This document shows positions 3,489-52,328 of a stretch of DNA of 64,000 nt, in pieces. Location: contig CANFVE010000002.1 in assembly GCA_947450365.1 (NCBI GenBank), positions 62,001 through 126,000 on the forward strand, in the 5' to 3' direction. Position 1 is the first letter of the stretch. Every line of letters begins with the position of its first letter. The stretch comes from Cytophagaceae bacterium. GTDB taxonomy: Bacteria > Bacteroidota > Bacteroidia > Cytophagales > Spirosomataceae. A program made the translations under genes and the position numbers. The notes under the pieces are model-generated. The model was not told where the DNA came from, did not search any database, and saw only the letters and a program-made list of their open reading frames with translations.

Positions 3489-5936
3489 ATGAATCTATTT
3501 CGCTCGCTTTGGCTGGTGGTCTTTTTTTGCCATGCTGCCTTTTCCCAAATACAAAAAGCGCCTGCCTATCCGCTCGTTGTCCATGACCCTTATTTTAGTA
3601 TTTGGTCTTTTACAGATCAAGCCAATGCCTCGGTGACGAAACATTGGACGGGGACGGATCATTCGTTGGTAGGATTATTGACCGTCGACCAAAAAACCTA
3701 CCAATTTCTCGGTTCTTTACCTTTTCCGGTCGAATCAGTCGTTCCCATCGCCGAGCGCTCTGTGCCGATTCCCTGCCAATACACGGAGGATGAACCCGCT
3801 GCGAATTGGACGGAAGCGGGCTTTAACGATGCTTCCTGGAAATCAGGCAAATTGCCTTTTGGCAAAGGTTATTCAAACACCTGGGCTACTTCCTGGCCGT
3901 CTAAAAATATTTGGGTACGTCGGACATTCCAATATGAAGAAGTGGATATCGAAAAACTGATTCTGTTATTGCGGCACGATGATGATGTGGAGGTATACTT
4001 GAATAATCACAAAATCTATTTCTGTCAAAATTGTAATACCAAGAAAATCAAGGCCATCGAGCTCGCGCAAGAGCTTAAAAAATACCTGCAAAAAGGAAAA
4101 AATATCCTGGCGATGCACGGAACGAATTTGCGGGGCAACGCTTGGTTAGACGCTGGTTTTGGGAAACAAAAAAATGCGAAGCAACTAAATCTTGCCAAAC
4201 AAATTTCCGTCGAAATGACCGCTACACAAACCAAATATGTGTTTGCCTGTGGACCCGTGCAACTAAATCTAACCTTTACCTCCCCATTGATTGCCTCAAA
4301 TTTAGATTTACTGAGTCGCCCTGTGTCCTATGTGGACATGCAGGTGAAATCGCTCGACAAGAAAATTCATGACACCGAGCTTACTTTTGCCATGTCCACA
4401 GACGTCGCTCGTAACGAAACAAACCAGGCGCAGCAAACCGTATACCGCAGCGCAGGAAATCTTCGATATGTGAAAACAGGCGTAATAAACCAACAAATAT
4501 TGGCCAAAAAAGGGGATGACCTTCGCATCGATTGGGGCTATGGCTATATGGCCACGACCCAGTTGGATCATCAACTGAGCACCAAATCCATCACCGATCT
4601 CATTAATCTCAGCGAAGGAAATCAGCGGGAAAATGCCAGCGCTGCATCTCAAGTTTTTCTGTGCAATCAATGGCGCACCCAAACGGGCGCGATGGGCAAA
4701 AAAACAAATTTTATGTTGGCCTATGACGACTTGTATTCGATACAGTATTTTGGCAAAAACCTACAGGCTTGGTGGGTGAAAAAACACCAAACGATGGAAA
4801 ATTTGCTCAAAACTTCAGATCGGGAACACGAAAAGATCATGCAGATTTGTGGGCAATTTGATAAAAAACTCGTGGCAGATGCCCTTTCCGCAGGCGGAAA
4901 GGAATATGCGGATCTTTGTGTGGCTGCGTACCGACAATCCCTTGCCGCTCACAAACTAGTCCGTGGCGAACACGATGAAGTGTTATTTCCGCAAAAAGAA
5001 AATTTTAGCAACGGTTCCATTTGGACCGTAGACGTAACCTATCCTTCTGCACCGCTCAGCCTCTTGTACAACACAGACTTGCTCAAAGGCATGGTGGAAC
5101 CCCTCATGTATTACAGCGAAAGTGGGCAATGGAAAAAACCGTTTCCAGCGCATGACATTGGGACCTATCCATTGGCCAACGGCCAAACCTATCCCGAGGA
5201 TATGCCCGTGGAAGAGGCCGGTAATATGATCATTCTGACGGGTGCCATTTGTAAGGAAGACGGTAATGCGCGCTTTGCCAAGAAACACTGGGAGACCCTA
5301 ACCCGTTGGGTGAATTTTTTAGTGAAAGATGGCCTGGATCCGGTGAATCAATTGTGCACAGATGATTTCGCCGGACATCTAGAACGGAATGCGAATTTAT
5401 CCTTGAAGGCCATCAATGGCATCGGGGCCTATGCTCAAATGGCCAGAACGCTGGGTATGAAATCCACGGCGGATTCGATGCAGCGCATTGCCCAAGGTTA
5501 TGTTAAAAAATGGATGCAGATGGCCGATGAAGGCGATCATTATGCCTTAACGTTTAATAAAAACAATACTTGGAGCCAGAAATACAATTTGGTTTGGGAT
5601 AAATTATTGGGCTTGCATTTATTTCCAAAGGAGGTCTATCAAAAGGAAATTGCTTATTATTTGACGAAGCAGAATGAATACGGCTTGCCCTTGGATAGTC
5701 GGAAGACCTATACGAAAAGCGACTGGATTATCTGGACGGCTACTCTGGCGGATACTCCTCGTGACTTTCAAGCAATCATTCATCCTATGTATAAATTCAT
5801 GCAAGAAGGTTCTAGTCGGGTTCCTTTCAGCGACTGGCATGAAACCAAAACGGGTGCGCATGTAGGCTTTCAGGCCCGAAGTGTGGTGGGTGGATTTTTT
5901 ATCAAATCCTTAGAAAAACATTGGGCAAAAAAATAA
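3489..5936 (+). CDS. DUF4964/DUF5127/DUF4965/DUF1793 glutaminase-like secreted protein
   Basis: An 815-residue protein with a signal peptide (about 1-19). Domain order looks like DUF4964 (about 20-95, with PLVVHDPYFSIWSF), DUF5127 (about 240-400), DUF4965 (about 410-580) and a DUF1793 (alpha/alpha) barrel (about 590-810). This architecture is annotated as glutaminase GtaA-like, but in Bacteroidota it usually sits in glycan loci, so a carbohydrate role is as likely. A jelly-roll segment (about 100-235, NWTEAGFNDASWKSG and LLLRHDDDVEVYLNNHKIY) is inserted between the first two domains and resembles the beta-sandwich of GH2-type enzymes. It is the first gene of the plus-strand run; the lyase follows after 4 nt. 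Confidence 0.8.
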   Translation: MNLFRSLWLVVFFCHAAFSQIQKAPAYPLVVHDPYFSIWSFTDQANASVTKHWTGTDHSLVGLLTVDQKTYQFLGSLPFPVESVVPIAERSVPIPCQYTEDEPAANWTEAGFNDASWKSGKLPFGKGYSNTWATSWPSKNIWVRRTFQYEEVDIEKLILLLRHDDDVEVYLNNHKIYFCQNCNTKKIKAIELAQELKKYLQKGKNILAMHGTNLRGNAWLDAGFGKQKNAKQLNLAKQISVEMTATQTKYVFACGPVQLNLTFTSPLIASNLDLLSRPVSYVDMQVKSLDKKIHDTELTFAMSTDVARNETNQAQQTVYRSAGNLRYVKTGVINQQILAKKGDDLRIDWGYGYMATTQLDHQLSTKSITDLINLSEGNQRENASAASQVFLCNQWRTQTGAMGKKTNFMLAYDDLYSIQYFGKNLQAWWVKKHQTMENLLKTSDREHEKIMQICGQFDKKLVADALSAGGKEYADLCVAAYRQSLAAHKLVRGEHDEVLFPQKENFSNGSIWTVDVTYPSAPLSLLYNTDLLKGMVEPLMYYSESGQWKKPFPAHDIGTYPLANGQTYPEDMPVEEAGNMIILTGAICKEDGNARFAKKHWETLTRWVNFLVKDGLDPVNQLCTDDFAGHLERNANLSLKAINGIGAYAQMARTLGMKSTADSMQRIAQGYVKKWMQMADEGDHYALTFNKNNTWSQKYNLVWDKLLGLHLFPKEVYQKEIAYYLTKQNEYGLPLDSRKTYTKSDWIIWTATLADTPRDFQAIIHPMYKFMQEGSSRVPFSDWHETKTGAHVGFQARSVVGGFFIKSLEKHWAKK

Positions 5937-5940
5937 GTCA

Positions 5941-8124
5941 ATGATGAAAAAAATCTTGTTTTTACATGTTATCCTAGCTTTTTCAGGGACGCTGATGGCG
6001 CAATCGAATGAGCTAAATCTGATTAAAAGTCGGATTGTGGCGGAATTATTTGCCAATCCGGCAGATGATCGGCAGGTAGGGCAAGCGCTTTCTCACCTGC
6101 AGGGCGATGGGAGTTTTACCAATATCGATTATTCGGATTTAAGTACGACGGCTAGTTTTCCGCATGGTCGGCATACGAGCGATATAGCCCAAATGGCCAA
6201 GGCCTTTAACAGTCCTAAATCTACCTATTATAAAAGTCCCATCGTCAAGGACGCCATGATTCGGGGCTTGCATTATTGGATTCAAAAGGATTATGTAGGG
6301 GATAATTGGCACGACAATCAAATCACCACCCCGACGAATTTAATCAATGTGGTCGTGGCCATGGGTCAAGATTTGCCTCTTGATCTTTTGGACAAATTAA
6401 AACCGATCATCGGTCGGGCCAACATGAGCGCTTCCGGCGCCAGACCCAGCGGTGACCGCATCGTCATTGCCGGAATTTTAGCGAAAAATATGCTTTTTTT
6501 AGGTAATGAAACCGAATTTAATGCGATTATCCGCATCATCGAAAGTGACATGAAATTTGCCAATGGCGAGCGGGGCATGCAACAAGATTATAGTTTTCAC
6601 CACCGCCCTGACCGCGTTAATAATACCATTTCGTATGGCTACACGAAATTCGCGAATACCTATGGGGAATGGGTGTCCTATGTCGCGGGGACAAAATTTC
6701 AATTTTCGAAGGAGAAAATTAACCAGTTGGTCGATTATTATTTAGATGGCGTCTATAAGCAATTAGTCTATGGTGTTTACGAAGATGTGGGCGTGAAAAA
6801 TCGGGATATCACGAATAAATCGGCGCATCAACCGCGAGGAACCCTGGAAATCGACCGCATGCTGGCTGCCACCGACCACCGAAAAAAGGAATTGGAAGAA
6901 ATCAAAGCCTTGCGAAAAGGAGAGGCGAAACCGACGGCTTCCTTTGCCAAATTCTTTTGGCAAACGGAACATTTTGTCTTCCAAAGACCTCATTTCTACA
7001 CCAGCGTCCGCATGTTCTCTACCCGCAATCAAAACATGGAGCAGCCCTATAATGGTCCTGGGAAAACCACTGCCCATCGGGCCGATGGAACGAATTATTT
7101 GTCTCTGACCGGAGATGAGTACCAGGGGATTTGGCCTGTTTATAACTGGCAAAAAATCAGCGGAACGACCATCATGCAAAAACCTGAATTGCCCAGTGCC
7201 AAAGACATTCAAAAGGAGGGACTCACGGATTTTGTGGGTGCGGTGACAGATGACCGCTACGGGGCAGTGGCCTTTGATTTTAAAAGTCCACATGATTTAT
7301 TGGAAGCGAAAAAATCGTGGTTCTTTTTCGATGAGGAATATGTCTGTCTAGGGGCGGGCATTAAACCGAAAAAATCATTGCCAGTCTATACGACGATCAA
7401 CCAAGTGCTGCTTCGAAGTGACGTGCGCATGGAACAAAATGGGATTCGCCAAACGCTACCGAATGGTAATCGCGCCGTGGAACGTGTAAATTGGGTCCTT
7501 CAAGATCGCGTGGGTTATTTATTTCCGGAACCGACGACGATTCATATTTCGAACCAAACGGAAAAAGGTCGGTGGTCTGACATCACCGACCAAAAAAACA
7601 TCAGCCAAGAAATCATCAGCGAACCTGTATTTTCGCTTTGGTTCGACCATGGGGATAAAATTAACGCGACCGACATCCACGGCAAACGCCTGTTGCCCCG
7701 TGCCCCTTCATATGCCTACATTGTCGTACCCAATGTGACGGAGGAAGCCCTCGCCGCATCGAGTGCTAGCCATCGGAATATCGAAATTTTAGCGAATACC
7801 GAACAGGTGCAAGCCGTCAAGCATTCGAAATTGGGCCTGGTGCAAGCTGCATTTTACCAAGCAGGCTCGGTGGACTTTGCTCCGGGGCAATCGATAAAAT
7901 TAGGTAGTCAAGGCATGGTCATGTGTCAGTTGAAAGGGAATAAAATCACCCAACTGACTGTCGCAGATCCTTCTCGCCGACTGTCTCAAGTCCTGATTAC
8001 CCTACCCGGATTATACATAGCTAAAGGTGCCTTTCCTGATAAGAAGGAAAATAAAACCTTGTGGATCATCGATGTTCCTCAGGGTGCCTATGCTGGAAAA
8101 AGTGTGACCATTTCGATACCTTAA
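5941..8124 (+). CDS. polysaccharide lyase family 8 (chondroitin/hyaluronate/xanthan lyase type)
   Basis: A 727-residue secreted protein (signal peptide about 1-20) with the PL8 layout: an N-terminal alpha/alpha toroid followed by beta-sandwiches. WHDNQITTP (about residue 102) matches the substrate-site Asn region. QDYSFHHRPDRVNNTISYG (about 216-233) carries the expected His (220/221) and Tyr (232). GDEYQGIWPVYNW (about 396-408) matches the conserved Glu segment of chondroitinase AC. PL8 enzymes cleave uronic-acid-containing polymers by beta-elimination. The His-to-Tyr spacing is longer than in the classic FlavoAC enzyme, so the polymer may not be a standard glycosaminoglycan. Only 4 nt from the upstream gene and 3 nt from the next. 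Confidence 0.82.
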   Translation: MMKKILFLHVILAFSGTLMAQSNELNLIKSRIVAELFANPADDRQVGQALSHLQGDGSFTNIDYSDLSTTASFPHGRHTSDIAQMAKAFNSPKSTYYKSPIVKDAMIRGLHYWIQKDYVGDNWHDNQITTPTNLINVVVAMGQDLPLDLLDKLKPIIGRANMSASGARPSGDRIVIAGILAKNMLFLGNETEFNAIIRIIESDMKFANGERGMQQDYSFHHRPDRVNNTISYGYTKFANTYGEWVSYVAGTKFQFSKEKINQLVDYYLDGVYKQLVYGVYEDVGVKNRDITNKSAHQPRGTLEIDRMLAATDHRKKELEEIKALRKGEAKPTASFAKFFWQTEHFVFQRPHFYTSVRMFSTRNQNMEQPYNGPGKTTAHRADGTNYLSLTGDEYQGIWPVYNWQKISGTTIMQKPELPSAKDIQKEGLTDFVGAVTDDRYGAVAFDFKSPHDLLEAKKSWFFFDEEYVCLGAGIKPKKSLPVYTTINQVLLRSDVRMEQNGIRQTLPNGNRAVERVNWVLQDRVGYLFPEPTTIHISNQTEKGRWSDITDQKNISQEIISEPVFSLWFDHGDKINATDIHGKRLLPRAPSYAYIVVPNVTEEALAASSASHRNIEILANTEQVQAVKHSKLGLVQAAFYQAGSVDFAPGQSIKLGSQGMVMCQLKGNKITQLTVADPSRRLSQVLITLPGLYIAKGAFPDKKENKTLWIIDVPQGAYAGKSVTISIP

Positions 8125-8127
8125 CCG

Positions 8128-9030
8128 ATGGAAAATACAAGTCGACGACATTTTTTAAAAACCAGTTCTTTGCTTTTAGGAATGCCTGTTATTCCCATGA
8201 TGGCGCCGAAAAAACCTCTTTTGTCCTTCTCCACCTTAGGCTGTCCAGCTTGGAGTTTTGATAAAATTATTCAATGCGCAGTCGAGCATGGTTATCAGGG
8301 TCTTGAAATCAGGGGCATTTTAGGGGAATTGAATTTGCCCAATATTTCGATGTTTTCGCCTGCACATATTGCGTCCACGCGGAGGCAGGTGGCGGATGTG
8401 GGATTGCAAATTATTAATTTAGGTTCCTCGGCAAATATGCATTTCATCGAAGCCACCAAGCGGAAAAGTAATTTGGATGAGGCTAAAAAATTTATTGAAC
8501 TAGCTCAAATGTTGAATTGTCCATTTGTGCGGGTATTCCCAAATGATTTGCCTAAAGACCAAAATGAGGCAAAAACGGTGGATATCATCATTCAAAGCCT
8601 ACAAGAATTGGGGGAATTTGCGAAGGGGACTGGGGTGAAGGTGTTGCTGGAATCCCATGGCAAAGTCATTCAAAGTGACATGCTTTTGCATATTATGCAA
8701 AGCGTGAATCATTCGCAGGTGGGCTTGGTATGGGATTATTTCAATATGTGGTCGGTCACCAAAGAGGACCCAGGTCTTGTGTATACTCGCTTGAAAAAAT
8801 ACATTCTGCACACACATATCAAGGATGCCAATATGCAAGCAAATGAGGAGGAATATACGTTGATCGGCCAAGGAAACGCTCCGCTACACGATGCGCTTCA
8901 TGCCTTAAAAAAAGGGGGATATGAGGGCTATTATAGTTTTGAGTGGGAGAAATTGTGGCATCCGGAAATTCCGGATCCGTCGATTGCGATTCCGCATTTT
9001 GCCAAAAACTTTAGAAAATATTGGGTCTGA
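8128..9030 (+). CDS. TIM-barrel sugar phosphate isomerase/epimerase, Tat-type leader
   Basis: A 300-residue AP-endonuclease-2-like TIM barrel of the sugar phosphate isomerase/epimerase family. The N-terminus has a twin-arginine-like signal (SRRHFLKTSSLLLG). The barrel shows FSTLGCPAWSFDKII at its start, ESHG near residue 172, WDYFNMW near 204, HTHIKDA near 229, and a final SFEWEK. These supply the Glu/Asp/His metal ligands usual for the fold. In secreted sugar clusters this family pairs with Gfo/Idh and GMC dehydrogenases and can act on 3-keto sugars; that role is inferred from context. It is tightly linked to the lyase (3 nt) and the GMC gene (2 nt). Confidence 0.8.
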   Translation: MENTSRRHFLKTSSLLLGMPVIPMMAPKKPLLSFSTLGCPAWSFDKIIQCAVEHGYQGLEIRGILGELNLPNISMFSPAHIASTRRQVADVGLQIINLGSSANMHFIEATKRKSNLDEAKKFIELAQMLNCPFVRVFPNDLPKDQNEAKTVDIIIQSLQELGEFAKGTGVKVLLESHGKVIQSDMLLHIMQSVNHSQVGLVWDYFNMWSVTKEDPGLVYTRLKKYILHTHIKDANMQANEEEYTLIGQGNAPLHDALHALKKGGYEGYYSFEWEKLWHPEIPDPSIAIPHFAKNFRKYWV

Positions 9031-9032
9031 AG

Positions 9033-10724
9033 ATGAAAGAGAAACAAACGTATGATGCCATTGTGATAGGTTCGGGGATCAGTGGCGGTTGGTCCGCCAA
9101 AGAACTCACTGAACGGGGCCTAAAAACATTGTTACTGGATCGCGGTCGGGACGTCAAGCATGTGGTTGATTATCCTACGACCTTAACGCAACCTTGGGAA
9201 TTCAAACATGGTGGCCAAGTGCCTTTGGCACTTAAAAAGGAATATGGAATTGCCAGTAAAAACTTCATTTTTTCTGAGGCGACAGCCCATTTTTTAACCA
9301 AAGATGAAGAACAGCCTTACATTCAAGATCGACCCTATGATTGGATTCGGGCCTATCATGTGGGAGGCCGATCTTTGTTGTGGGGCCGCCATACGCAGCG
9401 CTGGAGTGATTTTGATTTTACGGGTCCAGCGCGTGATGGATTTGCGGTGGATTGGCCGATTCGCTATCAGGATTTGGCGCCATGGTATAGCCATGTGGAG
9501 AAATTTGTGGGTATTTCGGGAAATAAGGATGGCTTAGAAACCTTGCCTGATGGGGACTTTATTAAACCCTATGAATTGTCCTGTGTGGAAAAACATTTTG
9601 GGAAGGTTGTGCATGAAAAATATCCGGATCGTCATGTCATCATCGCCCGGACGGCCAACCTTAGCCAGGCGGATAAAATTCATCAATCTGTCGGAAGAAG
9701 CAAATGTCAACACCGCAATTTATGTGAACGTGGTTGTCCCTATGGAGGCTATTTTAGCAGCAATTCGGCTACCTTACCGGCGGCCTACCAGACGGGAAAT
9801 TTGACCTTAAAACCCCATTCCGTTGTTCATTCGATTATTTATGATGAGCAGAAAAAGAAGGCGGTGGGTGTGCGGGTTATCCATGCGCTCACGCATGAAG
9901 CGGAGGAATATTTTGCTTCCGTTATTTTTGTCAATGCGTCGCCTTTGGCTACGAATCAGATTTTATTGAATTCCATTTCCTCCCGTTTCCCGAATGGATT
10001 GGGAAATGATTCGGGGATTTTGGGTACCCATATGGCTTTTCATAGTTATCGGGGGAGAATTACGGCGGAATATGATGGGGATTTGGGCTTTACGACGGAA
10101 GGTCGGCGACCTACTTCAGGCTATATTCCGCGTTTCCGAAATGTGTACAAGCAAGAAACTGATTTTTTACGAGGTTATGCGAGTAATTTATCGGCGAGCC
10201 GGGTGGTGGAAAATGCAAAGGATTTATTGGGAGAGTCCTTGAAGAATCAGTTATTGGCCCAGAAACTGGGAAATTGGCATATCAACGTAGGTATGATGGG
10301 TGAAACCATCCCCAAAGCCAGTTCGCAGGTTCGTTTGGATGCGGAGGCGAAAGATCCATATGGCATTCCGCAATTAAGGGTGTCGATTGGATATGATGCA
10401 AATGACGAGAAGATGCTGAAGGATTTTCACCAACAATTCACCGAGATGTACCAAGCCGCCGGTTTTAAAAATATCCAGCCGATTGACACCAAACGTCTTC
10501 CTGGAAATGAAAACCATGAGATGGGTGGGGTACGCATGGGGCGGGACCCGAAGACCTCGATGTTGAATGCCTTTAACCAATTGCATCATTGCAAAAACGT
10601 TTTTGTGACGGATGGTTCCTGCATGACTTCGACGTCTACCCAGAACCCATCCTTGACCTATATGGCCCTGACAGCCAGGGCGGTAGATTTTGCGGTGCGG
10701 GAGCGGAGGAAGTTGAATTTATAA
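9033..10724 (+). CDS. GMC family FAD-dependent oxidoreductase
   Basis: A 563-residue GMC oxidoreductase. The FAD-binding motif GSGISGGWSAKEL (about residues 14-26) and the C-terminal pair H (ENHEMGGVRMGRDP) and N (TQNPSLTYMALTARA) are present. A CQHRNLCERGC segment (about 220-230) is Cys-rich, as in quinone- or cytochrome-linked sugar dehydrogenases of this family. The likely job is oxidation of a sugar or glycoside, plausibly at C3. I chose the ATG at 9033; a TTG at 9021 in frame overlaps the upstream stop and adds only four residues. No signal peptide is seen, and no companion gluconate-dehydrogenase-type subunit 3 or cytochrome gene is adjacent. Confidence 0.85.
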   Translation: MKEKQTYDAIVIGSGISGGWSAKELTERGLKTLLLDRGRDVKHVVDYPTTLTQPWEFKHGGQVPLALKKEYGIASKNFIFSEATAHFLTKDEEQPYIQDRPYDWIRAYHVGGRSLLWGRHTQRWSDFDFTGPARDGFAVDWPIRYQDLAPWYSHVEKFVGISGNKDGLETLPDGDFIKPYELSCVEKHFGKVVHEKYPDRHVIIARTANLSQADKIHQSVGRSKCQHRNLCERGCPYGGYFSSNSATLPAAYQTGNLTLKPHSVVHSIIYDEQKKKAVGVRVIHALTHEAEEYFASVIFVNASPLATNQILLNSISSRFPNGLGNDSGILGTHMAFHSYRGRITAEYDGDLGFTTEGRRPTSGYIPRFRNVYKQETDFLRGYASNLSASRVVENAKDLLGESLKNQLLAQKLGNWHINVGMMGETIPKASSQVRLDAEAKDPYGIPQLRVSIGYDANDEKMLKDFHQQFTEMYQAAGFKNIQPIDTKRLPGNENHEMGGVRMGRDPKTSMLNAFNQLHHCKNVFVTDGSCMTSTSTQNPSLTYMALTARAVDFAVRERRKLNL

Positions 10725-10774
10725 TTGAACACATGCGGAATAGAAATAATTTCTTCATATTTACTTGAGTTTAC

Positions 10775-10784
10775 AAACCTATTT
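10775..10784 (+). promoter_or_regulatory. AAACCTATTT leader element
   Basis: AAACCTATTT lies 3 nt before the start codon at 10788, in the largest gap (63 nt) of the plus-strand cluster. It suggests a second transcription start inside the cluster. Confidence 0.4.
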
Positions 10785-10787
10785 AAG

Positions 10788-12131: not shown

Positions 12132-12133
12132 AC

Positions 12134-13270
12134 ATGGAATCATCTGTCAATTTACTCGAAAACCAAGAGCAATTTTTAAGTAAACGCCTCTATTCCCTGG
12201 ACGCTTTACGGGGCTTTGATATGTTTTGGATTATTGGCGCCGAAGACATCATTCATGGCTTAGCTGCTTATACCCATTCCCCATTTTGGGAAGCATTTTC
12301 AGCCCAATTGCGCCACCCCGTTTGGAATGGTTTTACCATGTACGACTTAATTTTTCCGCTATTTATTTTCTTGGCAGGGGTATCTACGCCCTATTCGATC
12401 GGGAAAGCCTTGGGAGATGGTGTGGCAAAACACATCTTATTGCGTCGTGTGATTAAACGAGGCCTTATTCTGTTTGCTTTAGGCCTTATCTATAATAATG
12501 GCTTGACCTTGAGGCCTTTGGCCGACATTCGATTTTCGAGCGTTTTAGGTCGAATTGGTATCACGTATATGTTGGCCAATATGCTGTACCTCTATGTGAA
12601 GGAACGCTGGTTGGTCATCTGGTTTGCGGGGCTATTAATTGGTTATTATGTACTATTGAAATTCTTTTCTGCGCCTGGATTTGCTCCGGGGGATTTAGGT
12701 ATGGAAGGTAATTTTGCTTCCTATGTAGATCGGATGTTGTTGCCGGGAAAATTAAGCCTGGGTATTCATGATACCGTGGGTTTATTTAATAATATTCCCG
12801 CCATAGGAAATGCATTAGCGGGAATTATGGTCGGAAATTTTCTTAAAAAAACGAATTTGGGTGGTCGGGAAAAGGCCTTATATCTCGCTTCAGTGGGTCT
12901 TATTTCATGCCTGATGGCGCAGGTATGGAATTTGGATTTTCCGATCAATAAAAACCTATGGTCAAGTTCTTTTGTCCTACAAACAGTCGGATTGAGCTTA
13001 GTATTATTTGCCCTATTTTATTATGTGATTGATGTATTAGGGTATAAAAAATGGGCATTTGCGTTTCAGGTTATCGGGGTGAATTCCATTTTGATCTATT
13101 TGTCTGAAAAATTTCTGGAATGGGAATATACAGCTAAAAAGCTTTTTGAATGGGCGTATCAATTGGCCGGCGAGTCCCTAAGCCCCATTTGTATAGCCAC
13201 GGCTATCTTATTCATCAAATGGCTTTTTCTTCGTTTACTTTACCAAAAGAATTTATTTTTACGCGTTTAA
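12134..13270 (+). CDS. NagX-like (DUF5009, heparan-alpha-glucosaminide acetyltransferase type) membrane protein
   Basis: A 378-residue polytopic protein with about ten membrane helices. SLDALRGFDMFWIIGAEDIIH near the N-terminus and MYDLIFPLFIFLAGVSTPYSIG are hallmarks of the DUF1624/DUF5009 family that includes eukaryotic HGSNAT and bacterial NagX. These are transmembrane acyltransferases acting on amino sugars, and in Bacteroidota they co-occur with nagA, nagB and GlcNAc transport. I use the ATG at 12134, directly after the upstream stop; an in-frame start at 12089 would overlap the upstream gene. It is followed by nagB after 8 nt. Confidence 0.8.
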   Translation: MESSVNLLENQEQFLSKRLYSLDALRGFDMFWIIGAEDIIHGLAAYTHSPFWEAFSAQLRHPVWNGFTMYDLIFPLFIFLAGVSTPYSIGKALGDGVAKHILLRRVIKRGLILFALGLIYNNGLTLRPLADIRFSSVLGRIGITYMLANMLYLYVKERWLVIWFAGLLIGYYVLLKFFSAPGFAPGDLGMEGNFASYVDRMLLPGKLSLGIHDTVGLFNNIPAIGNALAGIMVGNFLKKTNLGGREKALYLASVGLISCLMAQVWNLDFPINKNLWSSSFVLQTVGLSLVLFALFYYVIDVLGYKKWAFAFQVIGVNSILIYLSEKFLEWEYTAKKLFEWAYQLAGESLSPICIATAILFIKWLFLRLLYQKNLFLRV

Positions 13271-13273
13271 TAT

Positions 13274-13281
13274 AACCTATG
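13274..13281 (+). promoter_or_regulatory. AACCTATG element overlapping the nagB start
   Basis: AACCTATG includes the nagB ATG itself. This is the short-spacing form of the recurrent element and sits inside an operon, which speaks for a translational rather than a promoter role. Confidence 0.35.
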
Positions 13282-14022
13282 ACACCCTATTTTATTGCTC
13301 ATACTCCCCAAGAACTCGGAATCGCCGCAGGTCAACGCGCGGCTTCATTAATCAAGGAAACAATTAACCAAAAGGGTTCTGCTAATATCATTTTAGCCAC
13401 AGGAACAAGCCAGTTCGAAACGATACGGGAATTAATCAGTGACCCAGAAATCGCTTGGGAACATGTGCAAATGTTTCATTTGGATGAATATATTGGATTG
13501 CCCATAACGCACAAGGCCAGTTTTCGAAATTATTTACTTGAGCGCTTCGTAAATTTAGTTCCTACCCTCCAAATGGCACATTTGATTCATGGCGAAATTG
13601 ATCCTGAAGCCGAATGTAAACGATTAGGAGCGCTCATTCATCAGCATCCAATCGATGTGGCGCTCGTCGGAATCGGAGAAAATGGGCATTTAGCGTTTAA
13701 TGATCCACCTGCAGATTTTGAGACCGAAAATCCGTATATCGTCGTGGCCTTGGATGAGGCTTGTCGAGCCCAACAAATGGGCGAAGGCTGGTTCGATAGC
13801 CTCGAAGATGTTCCTAAAAAGGCCATCAGCATGTCCATTAAACAAATCTTGAAATCCCGTCACATCATTTGTTCGGTCCCAGGTGAACGCAAAGCACAAG
13901 CCGTTAACGATTGCCTGCGCTCAGATATTTCGCCTCTTTTTCCCGCGAGTATTCTGCAATCCCATCCGAATTGTGAGGTGTATCTAGATACTGAATCCGC
14001 TAAGCTTTTGCCTCATGCATAA
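13279..14022 (+). CDS. nagB: glucosamine-6-phosphate deaminase
   Basis: A 247-residue member of the NagB/6-phosphogluconolactonase superfamily. LATGTSQFETIREL near residue 40 is the phosphate-binding loop, FHLDEYIGL (about 66) the catalytic Asp strand, and GIGENGHLAFNDPPADF (about 134) the active-site loop with its His. The enzyme converts glucosamine-6-phosphate to fructose-6-phosphate and ammonia. The loop reads GENGH where E. coli NagB has GNDGH, a variant consistent with the shorter Bacteroidota form. Its last 8 bases overlap the start of nagA, indicating coupled translation. Together the two genes complete GlcNAc-6-P catabolism. Confidence 0.9.
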   Translation: MTPYFIAHTPQELGIAAGQRAASLIKETINQKGSANIILATGTSQFETIRELISDPEIAWEHVQMFHLDEYIGLPITHKASFRNYLLERFVNLVPTLQMAHLIHGEIDPEAECKRLGALIHQHPIDVALVGIGENGHLAFNDPPADFETENPYIVVALDEACRAQQMGEGWFDSLEDVPKKAISMSIKQILKSRHIICSVPGERKAQAVNDCLRSDISPLFPASILQSHPNCEVYLDTESAKLLPHA

Positions 14023-15214
14023 TTCCTCGGGCCGACTTAAAATTTTCAATGGCCAGGTGATAGGTCCAGATGCGATCCATTCAGGCGCCTGCCTGCTCGT
14101 AGAGCATGGAAAAATTGTAGGCATTGAGCCTATGGATACGGAATTTCCAGAGGCTAAAATCGTGGATGCGCATGGCAATTATATCTCACCAGGTTTTATA
14201 GATATCCATGTGCACGGAGGTGGAGGTAGTGATTTTATGGATGGTACCGTGGAGGCCTTTTTGACGATCGCCCAAACTCACGCGAGGCATGGGACGACAT
14301 CTCTTTTGCCCACCACGCTAACCAGTGAAAAGGAGGATCTAATTCAGACGTTGGAGGCTTTTGGAAAAGCTGAAAAAATGAATTCCCAAGGGGCGAATTT
14401 TATGGGAATGCATTTGGAGGGGCCCTATTTTGCGATGTCCCAACGAGGCGCTCAGGACCCCAAATACATCCGAAATCCTAATCCTGCCGAATATGAAGAA
14501 ATTCTGAATAGCTATTCGTGCATCAAACGATGGAGTGCCGCACCTGAATTACCAGGAGCCGTGGATTTTGGAAAATTTGTGACGTCTAAAGGGGTTTTAG
14601 CAGCCATTGCGCATACGGATGCGATTTACGAGGAGGTTTTGGAAGCCTACGAAAAAGGGGGATATTCATTAGCGACGCATTTCTATTCGGCGATGTCTGG
14701 AGTGACTCGAAGGAATGCCTATCGATATGCGGGGGTGGTGGAATCAGCATATTTGTTGGACGACATGAACGTGGAAATCATCGCTGATGGTGTTCATTTG
14801 CCAGCGCCATTGTTGAAATTAATCTATAAAATTAAAGGTCCCCATCGGATTGCCTTGATTACGGATGCGATGCGTGCGGCGGATATGCCCGCCGGAAATT
14901 CAATATTGGGTTCGCTGAAAAATGGCTTAGAGGTCTTGGTCGAAGATGGGGTGGCAAAATTACCCGACCGGACGGCTTTTGCTGGAAGTGTGGCCACGGC
15001 TGATCGATTGGTGAGGACGATGCTGGATATGGCGGAAGTTCCTTTGTTTGAAACTATCCAAATGATGTGCCATAGTCCTGCGAGGATTATGGGAGTAGAA
15101 TCGCAAAAAGGAAGTTTGGCCAAGGGCAAAGATGCCGATATCGTTTTATTTAATGCAGGCATCGAAATCCAAGAAACCTTTGTGATGGGTCGTTCTATTT
15201 ATACAAAAGCCTAA
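14015..15214 (+). CDS. nagA: N-acetylglucosamine-6-phosphate deacetylase
   Basis: A 399-residue amidohydrolase of the NagA family. Metal and catalytic motifs are all visible: HVHGGGGSDFMDGT (about residue 66), HLEGPYF (about 133), IAHTDA (about 195), THFYSAMSG (about 220) and LITDAMRAADMP (about 279). It removes acetate from GlcNAc-6-P to give GlcN-6-P for NagB. Translation is probably coupled to nagB through the 8-nt overlap. Its stop codon (15212-15214) overlaps that of the convergent DUF1080 gene (15211-15213), so no space for a separate terminator exists between them. Confidence 0.93.
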   Translation: MHNSSGRLKIFNGQVIGPDAIHSGACLLVEHGKIVGIEPMDTEFPEAKIVDAHGNYISPGFIDIHVHGGGGSDFMDGTVEAFLTIAQTHARHGTTSLLPTTLTSEKEDLIQTLEAFGKAEKMNSQGANFMGMHLEGPYFAMSQRGAQDPKYIRNPNPAEYEEILNSYSCIKRWSAAPELPGAVDFGKFVTSKGVLAAIAHTDAIYEEVLEAYEKGGYSLATHFYSAMSGVTRRNAYRYAGVVESAYLLDDMNVEIIADGVHLPAPLLKLIYKIKGPHRIALITDAMRAADMPAGNSILGSLKNGLEVLVEDGVAKLPDRTAFAGSVATADRLVRTMLDMAEVPLFETIQMMCHSPARIMGVESQKGSLAKGKDADIVLFNAGIEIQETFVMGRSIYTKA

Positions 15215-15933
15215 TCCAATTCCTTTATTTTAATGTTCCGAAAGGCGACATTGTGCCCATGGTCTTGTAGGAGAATATAGCCCTCCTTTCGTTGATCATA
15301 GCCGGGGATATCTTTGAATTTACTTTGTTGGAAACCCTTTTTAAACTCGGCGGATTGTCGGTCCACCGATACGATTAATTTTCCATCCAAATAATGTTCG
15401 ATATGGTCACCCTTGACAATGATTCGGGAACGATGCCAACGGCCGACACGTACATCCGCTTTATTCGGAGCTATGATGTTGTATACGGCTCCTGTTTTAT
15501 GATCCTCGGGCAAGTGTTTATCGTTATAAATGAAATCTGGATCATCAATCAGCTGATATTCATATCCGATCAATGAGCTAGAATTTTGTGGTTTTTGTGC
15601 TAGCTCCTCCACAAAATACTTGACCCCTGAATTACCTAATTTTCCTAATTTCCAATCGAATTGGAGGTCGAAATTTTTGTATTTCTTGCGTGTGATGATG
15701 TCGCCCCCATCGCCTGATTCTTTGCCGGCAGAAAGTTCCCCGAGTAATTGTTGGTCCCGAATGGCCCAGCCATGGGAGGGGAATTGGGATTGGTAAGCAC
15801 CTCGCCAACCCTCAGATGATTTCCCATCAAACAATAGGGTATATCCATTCGATTTTTCGTGTTGGGTCAAGGTGTTTTGTTGGCACGCGAAACAACAAAC
15901 TGATACAAGTATGAAATAGGTTATTTTTTTCAT
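15211..15933 (-). CDS. DUF1080 / 3-keto-disaccharide hydrolase-like lipoprotein
   Basis: A 240-residue lipoprotein (leader ending VCCFAC, lipobox Cys at about 16) with one DUF1080 domain: LLFDGKSSEGWRGA, ITRKKYKNFDLQFDWKLG, NSGVKYFVEE, HRSRIIVKGDHIEHYLDGK and a final GYILLQDHGHNVAFRNIKIKEL. The fold is a concanavalin-like jelly roll. PF06439 now carries the name 3-keto-disaccharide hydrolase, because members cleave glycosides already oxidised at C3. This gives the strongest functional hint for an oxidative glycoside pathway here. It is the last gene of a minus-strand operon with a Gfo/Idh gene (11 nt away) and an MFS permease. Confidence 0.85.
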   Translation of the reverse strand: MKKITYFILVSVCCFACQQNTLTQHEKSNGYTLLFDGKSSEGWRGAYQSQFPSHGWAIRDQQLLGELSAGKESGDGGDIITRKKYKNFDLQFDWKLGKLGNSGVKYFVEELAQKPQNSSSLIGYEYQLIDDPDFIYNDKHLPEDHKTGAVYNIIAPNKADVRVGRWHRSRIIVKGDHIEHYLDGKLIVSVDRQSAEFKKGFQQSKFKDIPGYDQRKEGYILLQDHGHNVAFRNIKIKELD

Positions 15934-15944
15934 GTGGTTAGAGA

Positions 15945-16934
15945 TTAATGTTGGAGTTTGATTCGGGCGCCATGTTTCCTTTTGCTGCGATCGGCAGCTT
16001 CCATAAAGGCGAAAATCTCAAGAGTTTCGGCTTTTTCCACGGGTGAAACTCCACTTTTGAAAAAGGAAATGATTTGGATCAAAAGAGGGTCATAGCCATT
16101 ATAGGGCCCTAGGGTTAAAACGCCTGATTTGCCAAATGCCGTACCACCATATTCTTGTTTTCCGGCTTTTAGACCGCGGAAAGTTCCAATTCGGCCATCT
16201 GCCCAAATGCCGGTACATACTTCTTGGTCTTCTGATATGCTTCGTTGGACCGAAACGCAACCCGTCCCCATGACCGAAAATAGCATTTCGACGCCATGAA
16301 TGCCATACCAAAAAAGATCTGGATGTGTTTTTTCGAATTTCATCGGGCTGTAGGTATCCGCGCCCAATACGGCACCGATTTTCCCTTGTTTGATTTCTGG
16401 CATTCCCGTAGCAAATCGCAACGATGACGCGGAAAAAATGGGTACTCGGTATTTTTCAGCTTCTTGGAATATCGCCTTGGCATCGGATAAGGATGCGGCA
16501 AACGGCTTATCGATGAAAGTGGTTTTACCAGCTTTAAATACTTCAATGGCTTGTTCGAGGTGCAAGCGGCCATCGTTGGTTTCAAGTAATACATAATCCA
16601 CCTGGTCTACAAGCGCTTGGATGGAAGAAACGATTTCCACTCCTAATTTTTTCACATCTTCTGTGTAGCCTGGAATCCGCTCGGTACTGGAAAGGATATC
16701 GCGACTTCCTTGAGGATAAGCCGCCACAATTTTAAACCCGTCATACATGGGATTAGCCGTGGATGCATTCAGCGATTTTGTAAAAGCCACGCTATGCGAG
16801 GAATCGAGCCCGATGATGCCGATTCGTTTTCCTTTTTCAACAGTTTCAGAATATCCTCGGCTTACAAAGGGCAAGGCCATGCCAGCAAGGGCCAAAGGTT
16901 TGATGAAATTTCTTCTCGTTACGTTTGTGTTCAT
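15945..16934 (-). CDS. Gfo/Idh/MocA family oxidoreductase (short form), Tat leader
   Basis: A 329-residue protein with a twin-arginine leader (TRRNFIKPLALAGMALP). The Rossmann fold shows GIIGLDSSHSVAFT (about residue 38) and later VLLETNDGRLHLEQAIEVFKAG and FIDKPFAASLSDA, where IDKP stands for the usual EKP. It is shorter than the other three Gfo/Idh proteins in the window and lacks their long C-terminal extension. The role is probably NAD(P)-dependent redox of a sugar intermediate. It lies 7 nt after the MFS gene and 11 nt before the DUF1080 gene, so all three are probably one transcript. Confidence 0.82.
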   Translation of the reverse strand: MNTNVTRRNFIKPLALAGMALPFVSRGYSETVEKGKRIGIIGLDSSHSVAFTKSLNASTANPMYDGFKIVAAYPQGSRDILSSTERIPGYTEDVKKLGVEIVSSIQALVDQVDYVLLETNDGRLHLEQAIEVFKAGKTTFIDKPFAASLSDAKAIFQEAEKYRVPIFSASSLRFATGMPEIKQGKIGAVLGADTYSPMKFEKTHPDLFWYGIHGVEMLFSVMGTGCVSVQRSISEDQEVCTGIWADGRIGTFRGLKAGKQEYGGTAFGKSGVLTLGPYNGYDPLLIQIISFFKSGVSPVEKAETLEIFAFMEAADRSKRKHGARIKLQH

Positions 16935-16941
16935 AGCATAT

Positions 16942-18261
16942 TTATGGACGAGACCAATATCTGATTTGATGTCCTTTCACCGCATAAAAAATCAAATATA
17001 GGTAACATGGAATCAATACGACATAGGCCATTTGTAGATCATATATATCGGCTAAATAGCCATAAATTAAGGGAAGGATTGCATTTCCACAGAGTCCCAT
17101 GATGAGAATCGATGCACCGATTTTAGTAAATTTTCCCAAGCCATCCAATGCCAAAGGCCAAATACCTGCCCAAATTAATGAATTGGACAAACCCAATAAA
17201 ACCACAAACCAGATACTGATATCTGCCTGCAAACCTGCCAACTCGATCGTACCATGGCTAATTAAAATACCACAACTAAACAGTAAACCCAAGCCAGTGC
17301 ATACACGAAGGGCATTGACCTGGCTAATGAAACGGGGAATCGCAAGGATGCCTACGATATACCCGCATATCGTGGCGGCTAAGGTAAAGGATGGGAAAAC
17401 TTTCGCTTCCATGAGTCCGATTTGCATCGAACCTGCATAACCGATGACCGTGTCGATGGCAATAACCTGCGTACCTACATGTAAAAAGATGGCAAAAGCA
17501 CCTAAAATAAGATGAGGGAATTGTAGGATACTTTTCTTACTGGAGTTGGTATTCAAATCGGTATTAGGTGCCTCATCCGTGTCAATTTCAGGCAAAGGTG
17601 AAAAACGGACCCCTAGGCCTAATAAAAACAACAGGATTCCTACACAAAAATAGGGAAGCTTTACACGGGAAATGAATTCATCCAAAGCTATTGCGCGCGC
17701 AGGACCGGTCATATGTTCGAGTTGTTTAAATAGGTCACTGTCGGTTGCCTTTAATATGACGGCTGCAAAAACGAGTGGGGCTAAAATTCCGGCACCTTTG
17801 TTGCAAATACCCATGATGCTGATGCGTTGGGCCGCGCGCTCTTTGGGACCTAAAAGGGTAATGTAAGGATTGGCGGCTGTTTGTAAAATGGCCAAACCCG
17901 TTCCTAAGGTGAATAAACCTAGGAGAAAAATGGAATAGGTACGTCCCATGGCGGCTGGAATAAAAATAAATGCGCCGATTGACATAATCCAAAACCCTAG
18001 CATGATTCCTTTCTTAAATCCGATTGACTTCAGCACATAGGAGGCCGGAACGGACATGATGAAATAGGAAATGTAAAAAGCGAAGGTGACCAAATAAGCC
18101 TGAAAATTGCTCAATTCGCAAGCAATTTTAAAATAGGGAATCAAGATGGAATTCGCCCAAGACACGAAGCCGAAAATAAAAAACATCATGCCGATGAGCA
18201 AAATGGAAATTTGAGTATCTCGTTGGCTTAAAGAGCTGACGGGTACGGCTTTGTTCATCAT
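16942..18261 (-). CDS. MFS sugar permease, FucP/GluP-like (FHS family)
   Basis: A 439-residue transporter with about 12 membrane helices. The first helix IGMMFFIFGFVSWANSILIPYFK and the segment LGTGLAILQTAANPYITLLGP are signature regions of the fucose/glucose-galactose/GlcNAc proton symporter group (FucP, GluP, NagP). The substrate is probably a monosaccharide released by the neighbouring enzymes; GlcNAc is plausible because nagA and nagB are adjacent. It heads the minus-strand operon and shares a 165-nt divergent promoter region with the Gfo/Idh gene at 18427. Confidence 0.85.
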   Translation of the reverse strand: MMNKAVPVSSLSQRDTQISILLIGMMFFIFGFVSWANSILIPYFKIACELSNFQAYLVTFAFYISYFIMSVPASYVLKSIGFKKGIMLGFWIMSIGAFIFIPAAMGRTYSIFLLGLFTLGTGLAILQTAANPYITLLGPKERAAQRISIMGICNKGAGILAPLVFAAVILKATDSDLFKQLEHMTGPARAIALDEFISRVKLPYFCVGILLFLLGLGVRFSPLPEIDTDEAPNTDLNTNSSKKSILQFPHLILGAFAIFLHVGTQVIAIDTVIGYAGSMQIGLMEAKVFPSFTLAATICGYIVGILAIPRFISQVNALRVCTGLGLLFSCGILISHGTIELAGLQADISIWFVVLLGLSNSLIWAGIWPLALDGLGKFTKIGASILIMGLCGNAILPLIYGYLADIYDLQMAYVVLIPCYLYLIFYAVKGHQIRYWSRP

Positions 18262-18266
18262 GTTAA

Positions 18267-18275
18267 TTAGGTTTT
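18267..18275 (-). promoter_or_regulatory. AAAACCTAA leader element
   Basis: On the minus strand AAAACCTAA lies 5 nt before the MFS start codon and about 11 nt after the predicted -7 box. It is a CCTAA variant of the recurrent leader element. Confidence 0.35.
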
Positions 18276-18286
18276 TCTAACAAAAA

Positions 18287-18317
18287 TTAAGTTAGGAGGA
18301 TTTTTTTAAAGAAGCAA
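18287..18317 (-). promoter_or_regulatory. promoter of the MFS-Gfo/Idh-DUF1080 operon
   Basis: On the minus strand TTG (18317-18315) is followed after 20 nt by TAACTTAA (18294-18287), close to the Bacteroidota TTG/TAnnTTTG pattern. Transcription would start about 7 nt further on, giving a leader of roughly 20 nt. Confidence 0.45.
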
Positions 18318-18368
18318 TTTATTGCCCGGAACTTCCGACTAGGCAGCACCTGATCCAAGAATATGCCA

Positions 18369-18400
18369 TTGATTTATTTCAATAAAAATTCTTATTTTTA
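18369..18400 (+). promoter_or_regulatory. promoter of the 18427 gene
   Basis: TTG at 18369-18371 and TATTTTTA at 18393-18400 are separated by 21 nt. The AAACCTATT element follows at 18412-18420, at about the predicted 5' end of the mRNA. Confidence 0.45.
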
Positions 18401-18411
18401 ATTTCATTTTT

Positions 18412-18420
18412 AAACCTATT
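18412..18420 (+). promoter_or_regulatory. AAACCTATT leader element
   Basis: AAACCTATT lies 6 nt before the start codon at 18427. It is a close match to the elements at 3111, 10775, 27062 and 31408. Confidence 0.4.
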
Positions 18421-18426
18421 AAAATC

Positions 18427-19857
18427 ATGACAGTATCTAGACGAAGTTTTTTGGAAAAAAGCGCGCTGGCAAGTAGCTTTTTCATCGTTCCGAGGAACGT
18501 ATTGGGTGGCAAAGGTTTTCGTGCGCCGAGTGATCAATTGAACATCGCCGGTGTCGGGATTAATGGCAAGGGGATGTCGGATGTGAATAATGCCTACAAC
18601 GAAGGCGTGAATAACATTACCGCCTTGTGTGATGTGGATTTAACCCGGGCAAAACCTTTATTTGATAAATATGCCAAAGCGGGCCGTTATCAGGATTGGC
18701 GGGTGATGTTGGAGAAAGAAAAAGGCATCGACGCCGTGACGATATCCACTCCAGACCATAACCATGCTGCCATCGCCATGGCTGCTATGCAATTAGGCAA
18801 GCACGTATACGTGCAAAAGCCGATGGCTCACAATATTTTTGAGGTACGGACGATGACAGAGGCCGCTCGGAATTATAAAGTTGTGTCCCAAATGGGTAAC
18901 CAAGGGGCCTCGAGTCCAGGGACTCAGCAAGTGGTAAAATGGTTTGATGAAGGCATCATCGGAAAAGTACATACCGTAAATATTTGGACGAATCGTCCGA
19001 TTTGGCCCCAAGGAATTCCAGTTCCTACGGGCAAGCATGATAAGCCTACCGACATAGATTGGGATGTATGGTTAGGGCCTGCTTCCCTCGTGGATTATAA
19101 TCCAGCCTATCATCCCTTCAAATGGCGAGGATGGTGGAATTTCGGAACAGGTGCCCTCGGAGACATGGGGTGCCATTTAATCGATGCGCCATTCCGCGCC
19201 TTAGGTTTGGGATACCCGACCGAAGTGGAGGCCAGCGTAGGTGCGGTCTTTGTCGCTGGAAATCAGCCGGAATACATTCCAGAGGGATGTCCGCCATCGG
19301 CAGCGATCCAATTAAAATTCCCTGCATCCAAGAAAAATAAATCTGCGGTGACGATGAACTGGACCGATGGCGGAATTCGGGGTTTCCACCCAGATTTAAT
19401 TCCGGCAGATGATTCGATTGGAACCGCGGATAATAGCAATGGGGTGATTATGATGGGTTCCAAAGGTGTCTTAGTCCATGCGACCTATGGCTTAGAACCG
19501 CGCATTTATTTGAATAATGGGCAAAAAATCGAGATGCCGAAGCAAGAACCCAATAACCTCAAAGAATATGGCCATCAAGCCATGTGGGCGGAGGCATGTA
19601 AGGCTGGATTTAATAGCAAGGAGCATCAAAGTCTTAGCTCTAAATTCGATTTTGCGGGTCCTTTGTCAGAGACTGTATTAATGGGTAATTTGGCCATTCG
19701 AAGTTTTAATGTGCGCACGCCGATTCCGAATACGAATCGCTTCAACTACCCAGGTCGTAAGAAATTACTTTGGGATGGTCAAAACATGAAAATCACGAAT
19801 TTCGAAGATGCAAATCAATTTGTGAAACGGGATTATCGAGCAGGTTGGAAATTATAG
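18427..19857 (+). CDS. Gfo/Idh/MocA family oxidoreductase (long form), Tat leader
   Basis: A 476-residue protein with a Tat leader (SRRSFLEKSALASSFF). The nucleotide-binding part shows GVGINGKGMSDV and ALCDVDLTRA; TPDHNHAAIAMAAMQLGKHVYVQKP carries the family Lys in a QKP rather than EKP context. The C-terminal alpha/beta domain is long and Trp-rich (WRGWWNFGTGALGDMGCHL), as in secreted Bacteroidota members that act on glycans. It is divergent from the MFS operon and is followed after 4 nt by a small secreted protein, suggesting a two-gene unit. Confidence 0.85.
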   Translation: MTVSRRSFLEKSALASSFFIVPRNVLGGKGFRAPSDQLNIAGVGINGKGMSDVNNAYNEGVNNITALCDVDLTRAKPLFDKYAKAGRYQDWRVMLEKEKGIDAVTISTPDHNHAAIAMAAMQLGKHVYVQKPMAHNIFEVRTMTEAARNYKVVSQMGNQGASSPGTQQVVKWFDEGIIGKVHTVNIWTNRPIWPQGIPVPTGKHDKPTDIDWDVWLGPASLVDYNPAYHPFKWRGWWNFGTGALGDMGCHLIDAPFRALGLGYPTEVEASVGAVFVAGNQPEYIPEGCPPSAAIQLKFPASKKNKSAVTMNWTDGGIRGFHPDLIPADDSIGTADNSNGVIMMGSKGVLVHATYGLEPRIYLNNGQKIEMPKQEPNNLKEYGHQAMWAEACKAGFNSKEHQSLSSKFDFAGPLSETVLMGNLAIRSFNVRTPIPNTNRFNYPGRKKLLWDGQNMKITNFEDANQFVKRDYRAGWKL

Positions 19858-20648: not shown

Positions 20649-20684
20649 AAAAAAATCCCCTCAAGAAAAGGGGATTTTTTTATT
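20649..20684. terminator. bidirectional intrinsic terminator
   Basis: AAAAAATCCCC (20650-20660) pairs with GGGGATTTTTT (20670-20680) around a 9-nt loop. It lies between the convergent genes ending at 20575 and 20728 and has an A-run on one side and a T-run on the other, so it can serve both. Confidence 0.8.
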
Positions 20685-52090: not shown

Positions 52091-52328
52091 ATATTATTGG
52101 CAATCTGTACTGTAAAGAATATAAAATTATATATTTGAGAAATTTAGTTCTGAAATATTTAAAATAAATACAGTAGGAAGTGAATTTTGTATTGAATGGG
52201 TATTTCTGTCTTATTATCCATGGGTTTTAACGAGATTTCTAGGTTAAAGCTTCTCAAACAGTTTATTTCTTTTGTAGGATTTTAATAAATGGCTATTGCC
52301 TATTTATAATAATGTTTGAATTAGGCTT

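Follow-up and report, generated by a model that had tools for sequence, protein, structure and literature searches.

The 64,000-nucleotide stretch analysed here (the window; contig CANFVE010000002.1 of assembly GCA_947450365.1, positions 62,001 to 126,000) comes from a genome of 2.66 Mb in 61 contigs that we take to be of the freshwater genus Aquirufa. Its positions 10788 to 18261 carry nag-like genes for the uptake and catabolism of N-acetylglucosamine (GlcNAc), together with genes for two Gfo/Idh oxidoreductases, GfoA and GfoS, both of which begin with a twin-arginine motif as used by the twin-arginine translocation (Tat) pathway. We propose that the core of this locus is a periplasmic oxidoreductive module that would act on a GlcNAc compound before uptake, a tentative reading to which we give somewhat less than an even chance. 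The observations behind it are gene content, conservation in relatives, the Tat-like protein starts, and the nearest sequences and folds.

Results

The genes of the locus lie in two runs that face each other. The forward run, GtaA-PL8-TIM-GMC-GfoA-nagX-nagB-nagA, stands tail to tail with the reverse run nagP-GfoS-DUF1080; within the runs the genes are separated by 2 to 63 bases or overlap slightly, and nagA and DUF1080 share 4 bases at their stop ends. A subset of the window's open reading frames (ORFs), 28 proteins, was scanned with Pfam, NCBIfam was also applied, and twin-arginine and lipoprotein-like starts were read from the sequence by inspection. The starts of GfoA (10788) and the nagX-like gene (12134) are internal ATGs chosen within longer ORFs. 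The genes from GfoA to nagP are as follows.

10788-12131, forward: GfoA, a Gfo/Idh oxidoreductase with a twin-arginine start (Pfam, profile, model and fold search, linkage)
12134-13270, forward: nagX-like gene for a transmembrane glucosamine N-acetyltransferase (NCBIfam NagX, 327.3 bits against a cut-off of 480; no Pfam match at 0.001)
13279-14022, forward: nagB-like gene for a glucosamine-6-phosphate deaminase (Pfam PF01182; NCBIfam nagB, 139.6 bits against a cut-off of 236.9)
14015-15214, forward: nagA (TIGR00221, 262.4 bits, above the cut-off of 225.65)
15211-15933, reverse: protein of the DUF1080 or 3-keto-disaccharide hydrolase family with a lipoprotein-like start (PF06439, 154.4 bits, cut-off 26.8; PDB profile)
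15945-16934, reverse: GfoS, a short Gfo/Idh protein with a twin-arginine start (Pfam, model and fold search, linkage)
16942-18261, reverse: nagP-like gene for an MFS permease (NCBIfam NagP, 374.6 bits against a cut-off of 625; gluP, 248.2 bits, over its cut-off of 202.55)

NagA alone exceeds its curated equivalog cut-off; NagB, NagP and NagX fall below theirs but have these names as their best-named matches all the same.

The core was followed into relatives, whose ORFs were longest-ORF calls named by the best BLAST match to the window proteins or by purpose-built hidden Markov models, most of them without a Pfam scan. Scanning named genomes with a GfoS alignment gave at least 588 relatives, from which the best 80, those most like Aquirufa GfoS, were kept; no GfoS ORF was found in one locus (L197), and the counts cover the other 79. 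Within 10 kb of GfoS, GfoA was present in 52 loci, nagP in 41, nagA in 34, nagB in 30, nagX in 12 and DUF1080 in 10, and among the loci with 8 kb of flank on both sides (n = 43), GfoA was present in 33 and at least one nag gene in 25. Fifty loci contain both Gfo proteins, on one strand in 40 and within 400 bases of each other in 28; NagP is found in 34 of these 50, an SSF symporter in six (L154, L172, L174, L189, L192 and L196, three of them checked with Pfam), neither in ten and both in none, as if unrelated permeases could carry the product. The genera named in the best-80 records include Aquirufa, Jiulongibacter, Emticicia, Dyadobacter, Larkinella and Runella, and further records come from Pedobacter, Cyclobacterium, Terrimonas, Siphonobacter and metagenome-assembled genomes of Bacteroidales. 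In Aquirufa, GfoA-nagX-nagB-nagA faces DUF1080-GfoS-nagP, and the same facing arrangement minus DUF1080 is seen in L077, L078, L079, L086 and L123, while L109-L113, L120, L122, L124 and L125 carry GfoS-GfoA-nagP-(nagB)-nagA on a single strand, and in some of them nagB is lacking or a second nagB-like gene stands in for it. In L072 the forward run opens, ahead of GfoA, with SusC, SusD and a BNR_2 protein that we take to be sialidase-like from its motif; L074 and L075 have ORFs of matching size, and close BLAST matches occur in L131 and L132, which are probably the same genomes. All GfoS (76/76) and GfoA (48/48) proteins that passed the identity and coverage limits have twin-arginine starts, and LacI-type regulators lie near 19/80 GfoS loci. 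Judged by these gene neighbourhoods, the part conserved beyond Aquirufa is GfoA and GfoS with Tat-like signals, a putative permease (NagP or SSF), NagA and NagB.

Of the 38 genomes of the genus, 20 have nagX together with GfoS (E 1e-40) and the other 18 have neither, the nagX counts including paralogues (G027 showed only a paralogue-like nagX fragment). A GfoA orthologue is present in 19 genomes of the first group, G027 being the exception and the G004 copy being cut by a contig end, and no genome of the second group has one. Because the genes are adjacent, this co-occurrence reflects the gain or loss of a block in few independent events. All 32 fetched loci with both nagA and GfoS were compared for DUF1080, which is present in 15/15 from other Aquirufa genomes. 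The nearest named 3-keto enzyme in the PDB to the DUF1080 protein is 8rr2 (profile, 4.6e-33). The whole genome holds 15 PF06439 (DUF1080) matches in its 2.66 Mb.

A profile of 24 GfoA proteins matched, in the PDB, first the Alistipes glucoside-3-dehydrogenase entries 8tdf (9.6e-34) and 8tdh (2.6e-33), then DgpA at 7.7e-19. The GfoA model (predicted local distance difference test, pLDDT, 82.5) has as its top fold match the Alistipes glucoside-3-dehydrogenase AL3 (8tdf; template modelling score, TM, 0.69-0.70; 21% identity), and the later matches, whose ranks are close in score, include DgpA1, RgNanOx and a glucuronide-3-dehydrogenase. The GfoS model (pLDDT 87.5) matched Gfo/Idh enzymes generally, with YjhC first at 17% identity, and its profile reached only two PDB chains at 1e-5. 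The glucose-fructose oxidoreductase of Zymomonas is a precedent for export of a cofactor-bearing Gfo/Idh enzyme via Tat, and the structure of its precursor is among the GfoA profile matches. The window encodes a further Gfo/Idh protein (30051-31394, reverse) with 41% identity to GfoA, adjoining a GH31 gene (31616-33748).

The other genes of the region are as follows.

3489-5936, forward: GtaA-type protein (glutaminase A six-hairpin, DUF5127, DUF4964; Pfam), first in the forward run and in the same place in the relative G019
5941-8124, forward: PL8 lyase, chondroitinase-AC-like (Pfam; NCBIfam, 334 bits against a cut-off of 1000; alignment to 1hm2)
8128-9030, forward: TIM, an AP_endonuc_2 TIM-barrel protein with a twin-arginine start (Pfam, sequence), partner of GMC in congeners
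9021-10724, forward: GMC oxidoreductase (Pfam), whose nearest solved structure in the PDB is the fructose dehydrogenase large subunit
18427-19857, forward: BT2158-like Gfo/Idh protein that begins with a twin-arginine motif, its gene pointing away from nagP (BT_2158_fam match across most of its length, 472.1 bits, cut-off 750)
19862-20575, forward: DUF4488-like small protein, 3' of the BT2158-like gene (PF14869, 22.3 bits, below the cut-off of 27)

The genes named in an initial annotation of the window were all present at the right coordinates by Pfam and NCBIfam, and only the GtaA-type gene, which begins at the first base of the region described there (3489), had gone unnamed. Hairpins resembling terminators occupy 3383-3411 and 20649-20681, in a weak scan that found 30 sites in the region against 20.9 +/- 4.9 in shuffles; the promoter scan was uninformative (26 found, 34.8 expected). 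Further along the window, the G+C content drops to 0.28-0.30 at positions 52001-58000; for the rest of the first 48 kb it is about 0.44.

The same annotation had made GMC, or else a Tat-exported Gfo/Idh enzyme, the C3 oxidiser of a 3-keto pathway and PL8 the source of its amino-sugar oligosaccharides, and neither the GMC nor the PL8 assignment withstood comparison with relatives. GMC orthologues (at least 84% identity) occur in 23 of the 38 genus genomes, 15 with nagX and eight without (Fisher p 0.096, from presence lists compiled by hand from the search tables), and those eight lack GfoS as well. No nag, GfoA, GfoS or DUF1080 orthologue was found in the 20 fetched GMC loci (19 from relatives and one paralogue from the window genome), and TIM lies immediately upstream of GMC in 10/11 congeneric loci (L089-L099). 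By gene order, TIM-GMC is a separate putative module, seen within the nag run only in the window genome and its two close relatives. The window GMC gene, flanked by TIM and GfoA, has no PF13618 small subunit next to it; a GMC paralogue (64%) on contig 32 of the same genome does have a PF13618 neighbour. GMC was rejected as a core member on the relatives' loci and on its occurrence in genomes without nagX and GfoS.

PL8 matches were found in 25/149 genomes at E 1e-30, with the window genome counted among the 25. A nag cluster lay nearby in 1/20 fetched relatives' loci (L042, from G019, 90% identity), and G026 repeats the window order on a contig that starts inside PL8 (L088); PL8 was rejected as a core member, its nag linkage being confined to the window genome, G019 and G026 as far as the loci reach. 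In G017, a 64% relative of PL8 is grouped with a GH88 gene, two heparinase-II/III-like genes and a BNR_4 protein, and upstream of it stands a 588-residue protein judged SusD-like from its start only. The Lyase_8, Lyase_8_N and Lyase_8_C domains all exceed the Pfam cut-offs, as in chondroitinase AC, whose catalytic residues we take to be Asn175, His225, Tyr234 and Arg288. The window protein differs from that enzyme in its equivalog score and in Asp172, which aligns with Asn175 (alignment to 1hm2), whereas His221, Tyr232 and Arg288 are kept; the PL8 subfamily that takes in the window protein and L042-L060 has Asp at the catalytic-Asn position in 20/21 rows. In the products of hyaluronan- and chondroitin-type lyases the amino sugar is bonded at O3, and therefore its C3 would be blocked, so that the chemistry speaks against a PL8 lyase step feeding C3 oxidation. 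GtaA, PL8, TIM and GMC look like recent local neighbours, added to the forward run in the species group of the window genome at the place where some congeners have SusC, SusD and a sialidase-like protein, as described for L072. A classic glycosaminoglycan polysaccharide utilisation locus has SusC/SusD and GH88 at the locus, and the absence of these from the region, noted in the initial annotation, holds among the 28 scanned proteins. It is local only for GH88, an organism-wide lack being rejected on seven matches elsewhere in the genome, four of them strong.

Additional genes recur among the best-80 loci, namely a DegT-type aminotransferase (15), a ceramidase-like protein (11) and a 422-residue protein (11) that has no Pfam match and is, we think, a beta-propeller. 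The DegT proteins that passed the limits have twin-arginine starts in 17/17 cases. A DegT search found the aminotransferase in 11 of 59 genomes and not in the window's own; each of the 11 belongs to the genus and carries the nag module, and in six of them the coordinates place the gene within about 10 kb of it. In L119 the DegT gene (6807-8201, with a twin-arginine start) forms a block with the ceramidase-like and 422-residue proteins beside GfoS-GfoA-NagP, and blocks of this type also occur in L140, L142, L167, L183 and L208. The window itself has a fatty acid hydroxylase gene (27074-28342, forward) followed by a ceramidase-like (PF04734) gene (28358-29776, forward), a family that also lies beside GfoS in other genera.

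Discussion

The results allow us to propose a series of steps for the module. GfoA would be exported in the folded state via Tat, probably carrying its own nicotinamide cofactor, NAD(P), and would oxidise the sugar, most likely at C3. GfoS would be exported likewise and would reduce the keto product back to GlcNAc, and on our reading the pair would perform a single oxidation and a single reduction, both at the periplasmic side of the permease. NagX would N-acetylate glucosamine at the membrane, NagP would import GlcNAc and, after an assumed kinase, NagA and NagB would yield fructose 6-phosphate. In Aquirufa, a DUF1080 lipoprotein appears to have joined the module, where it probably cleaves the 3-keto intermediate at its glycosidic bond; in other genera another enzyme may cleave, or no bond cleavage may be needed. 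Each reaction, C3 as the site, the identity of the substrate and the assignment of the oxidation to GfoA rather than GfoS are inferred. Oxidation and elimination beside a 2-acetamido group has an analogue in GH109, described in excerpts of PMC10628242 as elimination linked to transient oxidation. The earlier suggestion, which coupled a 3-keto route to GlcNAc catabolism, stays plausible for the Gfo/Idh pair and DUF1080, on conserved linkage and glucoside-3-dehydrogenase likeness, and is given up for the GMC and lyase steps. Gene order in relatives divides in the same way, with DUF1080 linked to nag genes in all fetched Aquirufa loci that have nagA and GfoS, the Gfo/Idh pair linked to them more widely, and GMC and PL8 linked to them only in the window genome and its two close relatives.

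Several observations weigh against this proposal. DUF1080 was found near only 4/43 well-flanked GfoS loci and in 0/17 fetched nagA and GfoS loci of other genera, orthology being called by BLAST at 45% identity, at which a diverged copy could escape; the DUF1080 cleaving step is therefore not conserved, and DUF1080 was rejected as a constant module member on these counts outside the genus. No nag gene was found in 18/43 well-flanked GfoS loci, nine of which have GfoA and the other nine neither GfoA nor DUF1080, and some nag-less loci adjoin glucuronyl-esterase-like or other genes, so that the GfoA/GfoS pair may serve other sugars too. The BT_2158_fam scores of GfoA (146.6 bits) and the 18427 protein (472.1 bits) are far under the cut-off of 750, GfoS has no BT_2158_fam or BT_2159_fam match at 0.001 in NCBIfam, and NagB, NagP and NagX are all below their equivalog cut-offs; to BT_2159_fam (cut-off 650), GfoA scores 27.0 bits and the 18427 protein 21.6 bits. 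The linkage counts, for which the neighbour controls were GMC and PL8 loci only, lack a matched control set of other Gfo/Idh families, and the best 80 of at least 588 loci are the most query-like sample, both of which weaken the case.

Several other explanations have to be set beside the proposed module. GfoA and GfoS could form a periplasmic redox epimerase for a free N-acetylhexosamine, which would turn for example N-acetylmannosamine (ManNAc) or N-acetylgalactosamine (GalNAc) into GlcNAc ahead of uptake, with no glycosidic bond broken and DUF1080 a separate addition in Aquirufa. An oxidation-reduction pair minus a cleaving enzyme suits epimerisation, the pair is retained without DUF1080 in other genera with a permease adjacent in 40/50 loci, and the sialidase-like gene ahead of GfoA in L072 would fit a supply of ManNAc from sialic acid; the nearest solved structures to GfoA, however, are glycoside 3-dehydrogenases, and DUF1080 is fixed in the module throughout the genus, so that we regard the epimerase as unlikely, though not by a wide measure. 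Because of the same gene in L072, a sialic-acid role of GfoA like that of RgNanOx or YjhC was also considered, and GfoA may have one. Both are in the GfoA fold list, at ranks 5 and 10, and YjhC tops that of GfoS, but the 3-dehydrogenase outranks both for GfoA and their profile E-values are far weaker (about 2e-7 and 5e-6). The nag-less loci described above, together with the inositol dehydrogenases among the fold matches, would suit enzymes for sugars or cyclitols unrelated to GlcNAc, beside which the nag genes stand for some other reason. That is distinctly improbable in our view, as nag genes occur in 25/43 well-flanked loci and gain or loss is complete with nagX in the genus, even if the adjacent genes there record few independent events.

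A GGHGG loop is reportedly named for GH109 in a publication title, and it bears on the possibility that GfoA is a GH109-type NAD-dependent glycosidase which cleaves N-acetylhexosaminides alone via transient oxidation. The loop occurs in 0 of 24, 28, 35 and 37 rows (alignments A1, A2, A4 and A5), being absent from 24/24 and 35/35 GfoA rows and from all GfoS rows, and GH109 membership of GfoA and GfoS was rejected on this ground. The GH109 structure 2ixa matches the GfoA profile at 6.3e-14, but only over positions 35-194, the NAD-binding part. In favour of this explanation, the NAD-dependent glycoside hydrolase 8qc6 is among the GfoA fold matches, at rank 45. Excerpts of PMC11992087 describe GH109 enzymes as releasing GalNAc, with a secreted GH109 N-acetylgalactosaminidase of B. 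theta beside a permease and a GalNAc kinase; the setting, a secreted enzyme of Gfo/Idh fold beside N-acetylhexosamine uptake and catabolism, is the one seen here, whereas GfoA and GfoS are without GGHGG, and we find this explanation very improbable. More doubtful still is the full pathway first drawn for the locus, in which PL8 would release amino-sugar oligosaccharides from a glycosaminoglycan-like polymer, GMC would oxidise C3, DUF1080 cleave, a Gfo/Idh protein reduce and NagP import. The genes do form one closely spaced forward run and a facing run, in an order common to G019 and, as far as contigs reach, G026; against it stand the PL8 and GMC genes unlinked to nag genes in the fetched loci of other relatives, the lack of an adjacent PF13618 partner for GMC, the blocked amino-sugar O3 and the GH88 genes elsewhere in the genome.

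The proposed module is related to known systems but differs from each. As far as excerpts of PMC9007349, PMC11300592 and PMC13273386, PDB names and general knowledge cover it, the 3-keto pathway of B. thetaiotaomicron (BT2157-BT2159) shares with the window DUF1080 and Gfo/Idh proteins with export signals, and GfoA and the 18427 protein may be akin to its BT2158-type glycoside 3-dehydrogenases. BT2158 is described there as a periplasmic glycoside 3-dehydrogenase on which the use of disaccharides and glucosinolates depends (PMC11300592) and BT2157 as a 3-ketotrehalose hydrolase (PMC9007349). The window scores are sub-cut-off, however, GfoS is not BT2159-like, the window genes adjoin those for taking up and degrading GlcNAc, and DUF1080 is absent from most relatives' loci. 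For lactose, the excerpted PMC9007349 proposes LacABC and DUF1080 in Caulobacter with the same logic, in which C3 is oxidised in the periplasm before a DUF1080 protein acts, but the oxidase is a three-part membrane dehydrogenase, whereas the window GMC has no adjacent PF13618 and is not a conserved partner. The nagPIBAF cluster of Stenotrophomonas (excerpts of PMC13055268) has in common an MFS permease, a deacetylase and a deaminase, to which the window module adds two exported Gfo/Idh proteins and NagX; no such oxidoreductase is named in it, the word occurring 0 times in the main text.

A literature search found no report that links NagA, NagP or NagX of Bacteroidetes to a Gfo/Idh protein or an oxidoreductase, nor, among the matches listed, one on the GfoA/GfoS pair, which is weak evidence of novelty because the search reached open-licence papers only. 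We put forward, as a bolder and rather doubtful generalisation, that Bacteroidota may have a dedicated periplasmic oxidise-cleave-reduce route for GlcNAc glycosides, in which Tat-exported GfoA and GfoS would make and unmake a 3-keto amino sugar, with uptake by NagP or SSF, a cleaving enzyme that can be exchanged (DUF1080 in the case of Aquirufa) and, for certain lineages, a pyridoxal-phosphate-dependent aminotransferase exported via Tat. Three small proteins are open to assay, and culturable hosts exist in Aquirufa, Dyadobacter, Pedobacter and Larkinella. GlcNAc is among the commonest natural sugars, and conventional hydrolases are regarded as the enzymes that release it. If the proposal is true, many Bacteroidota would process amino sugars oxidatively before these reach the cytoplasm, and the 3-keto pathway, described for disaccharides and other glycosides, would be extended to amino sugars.

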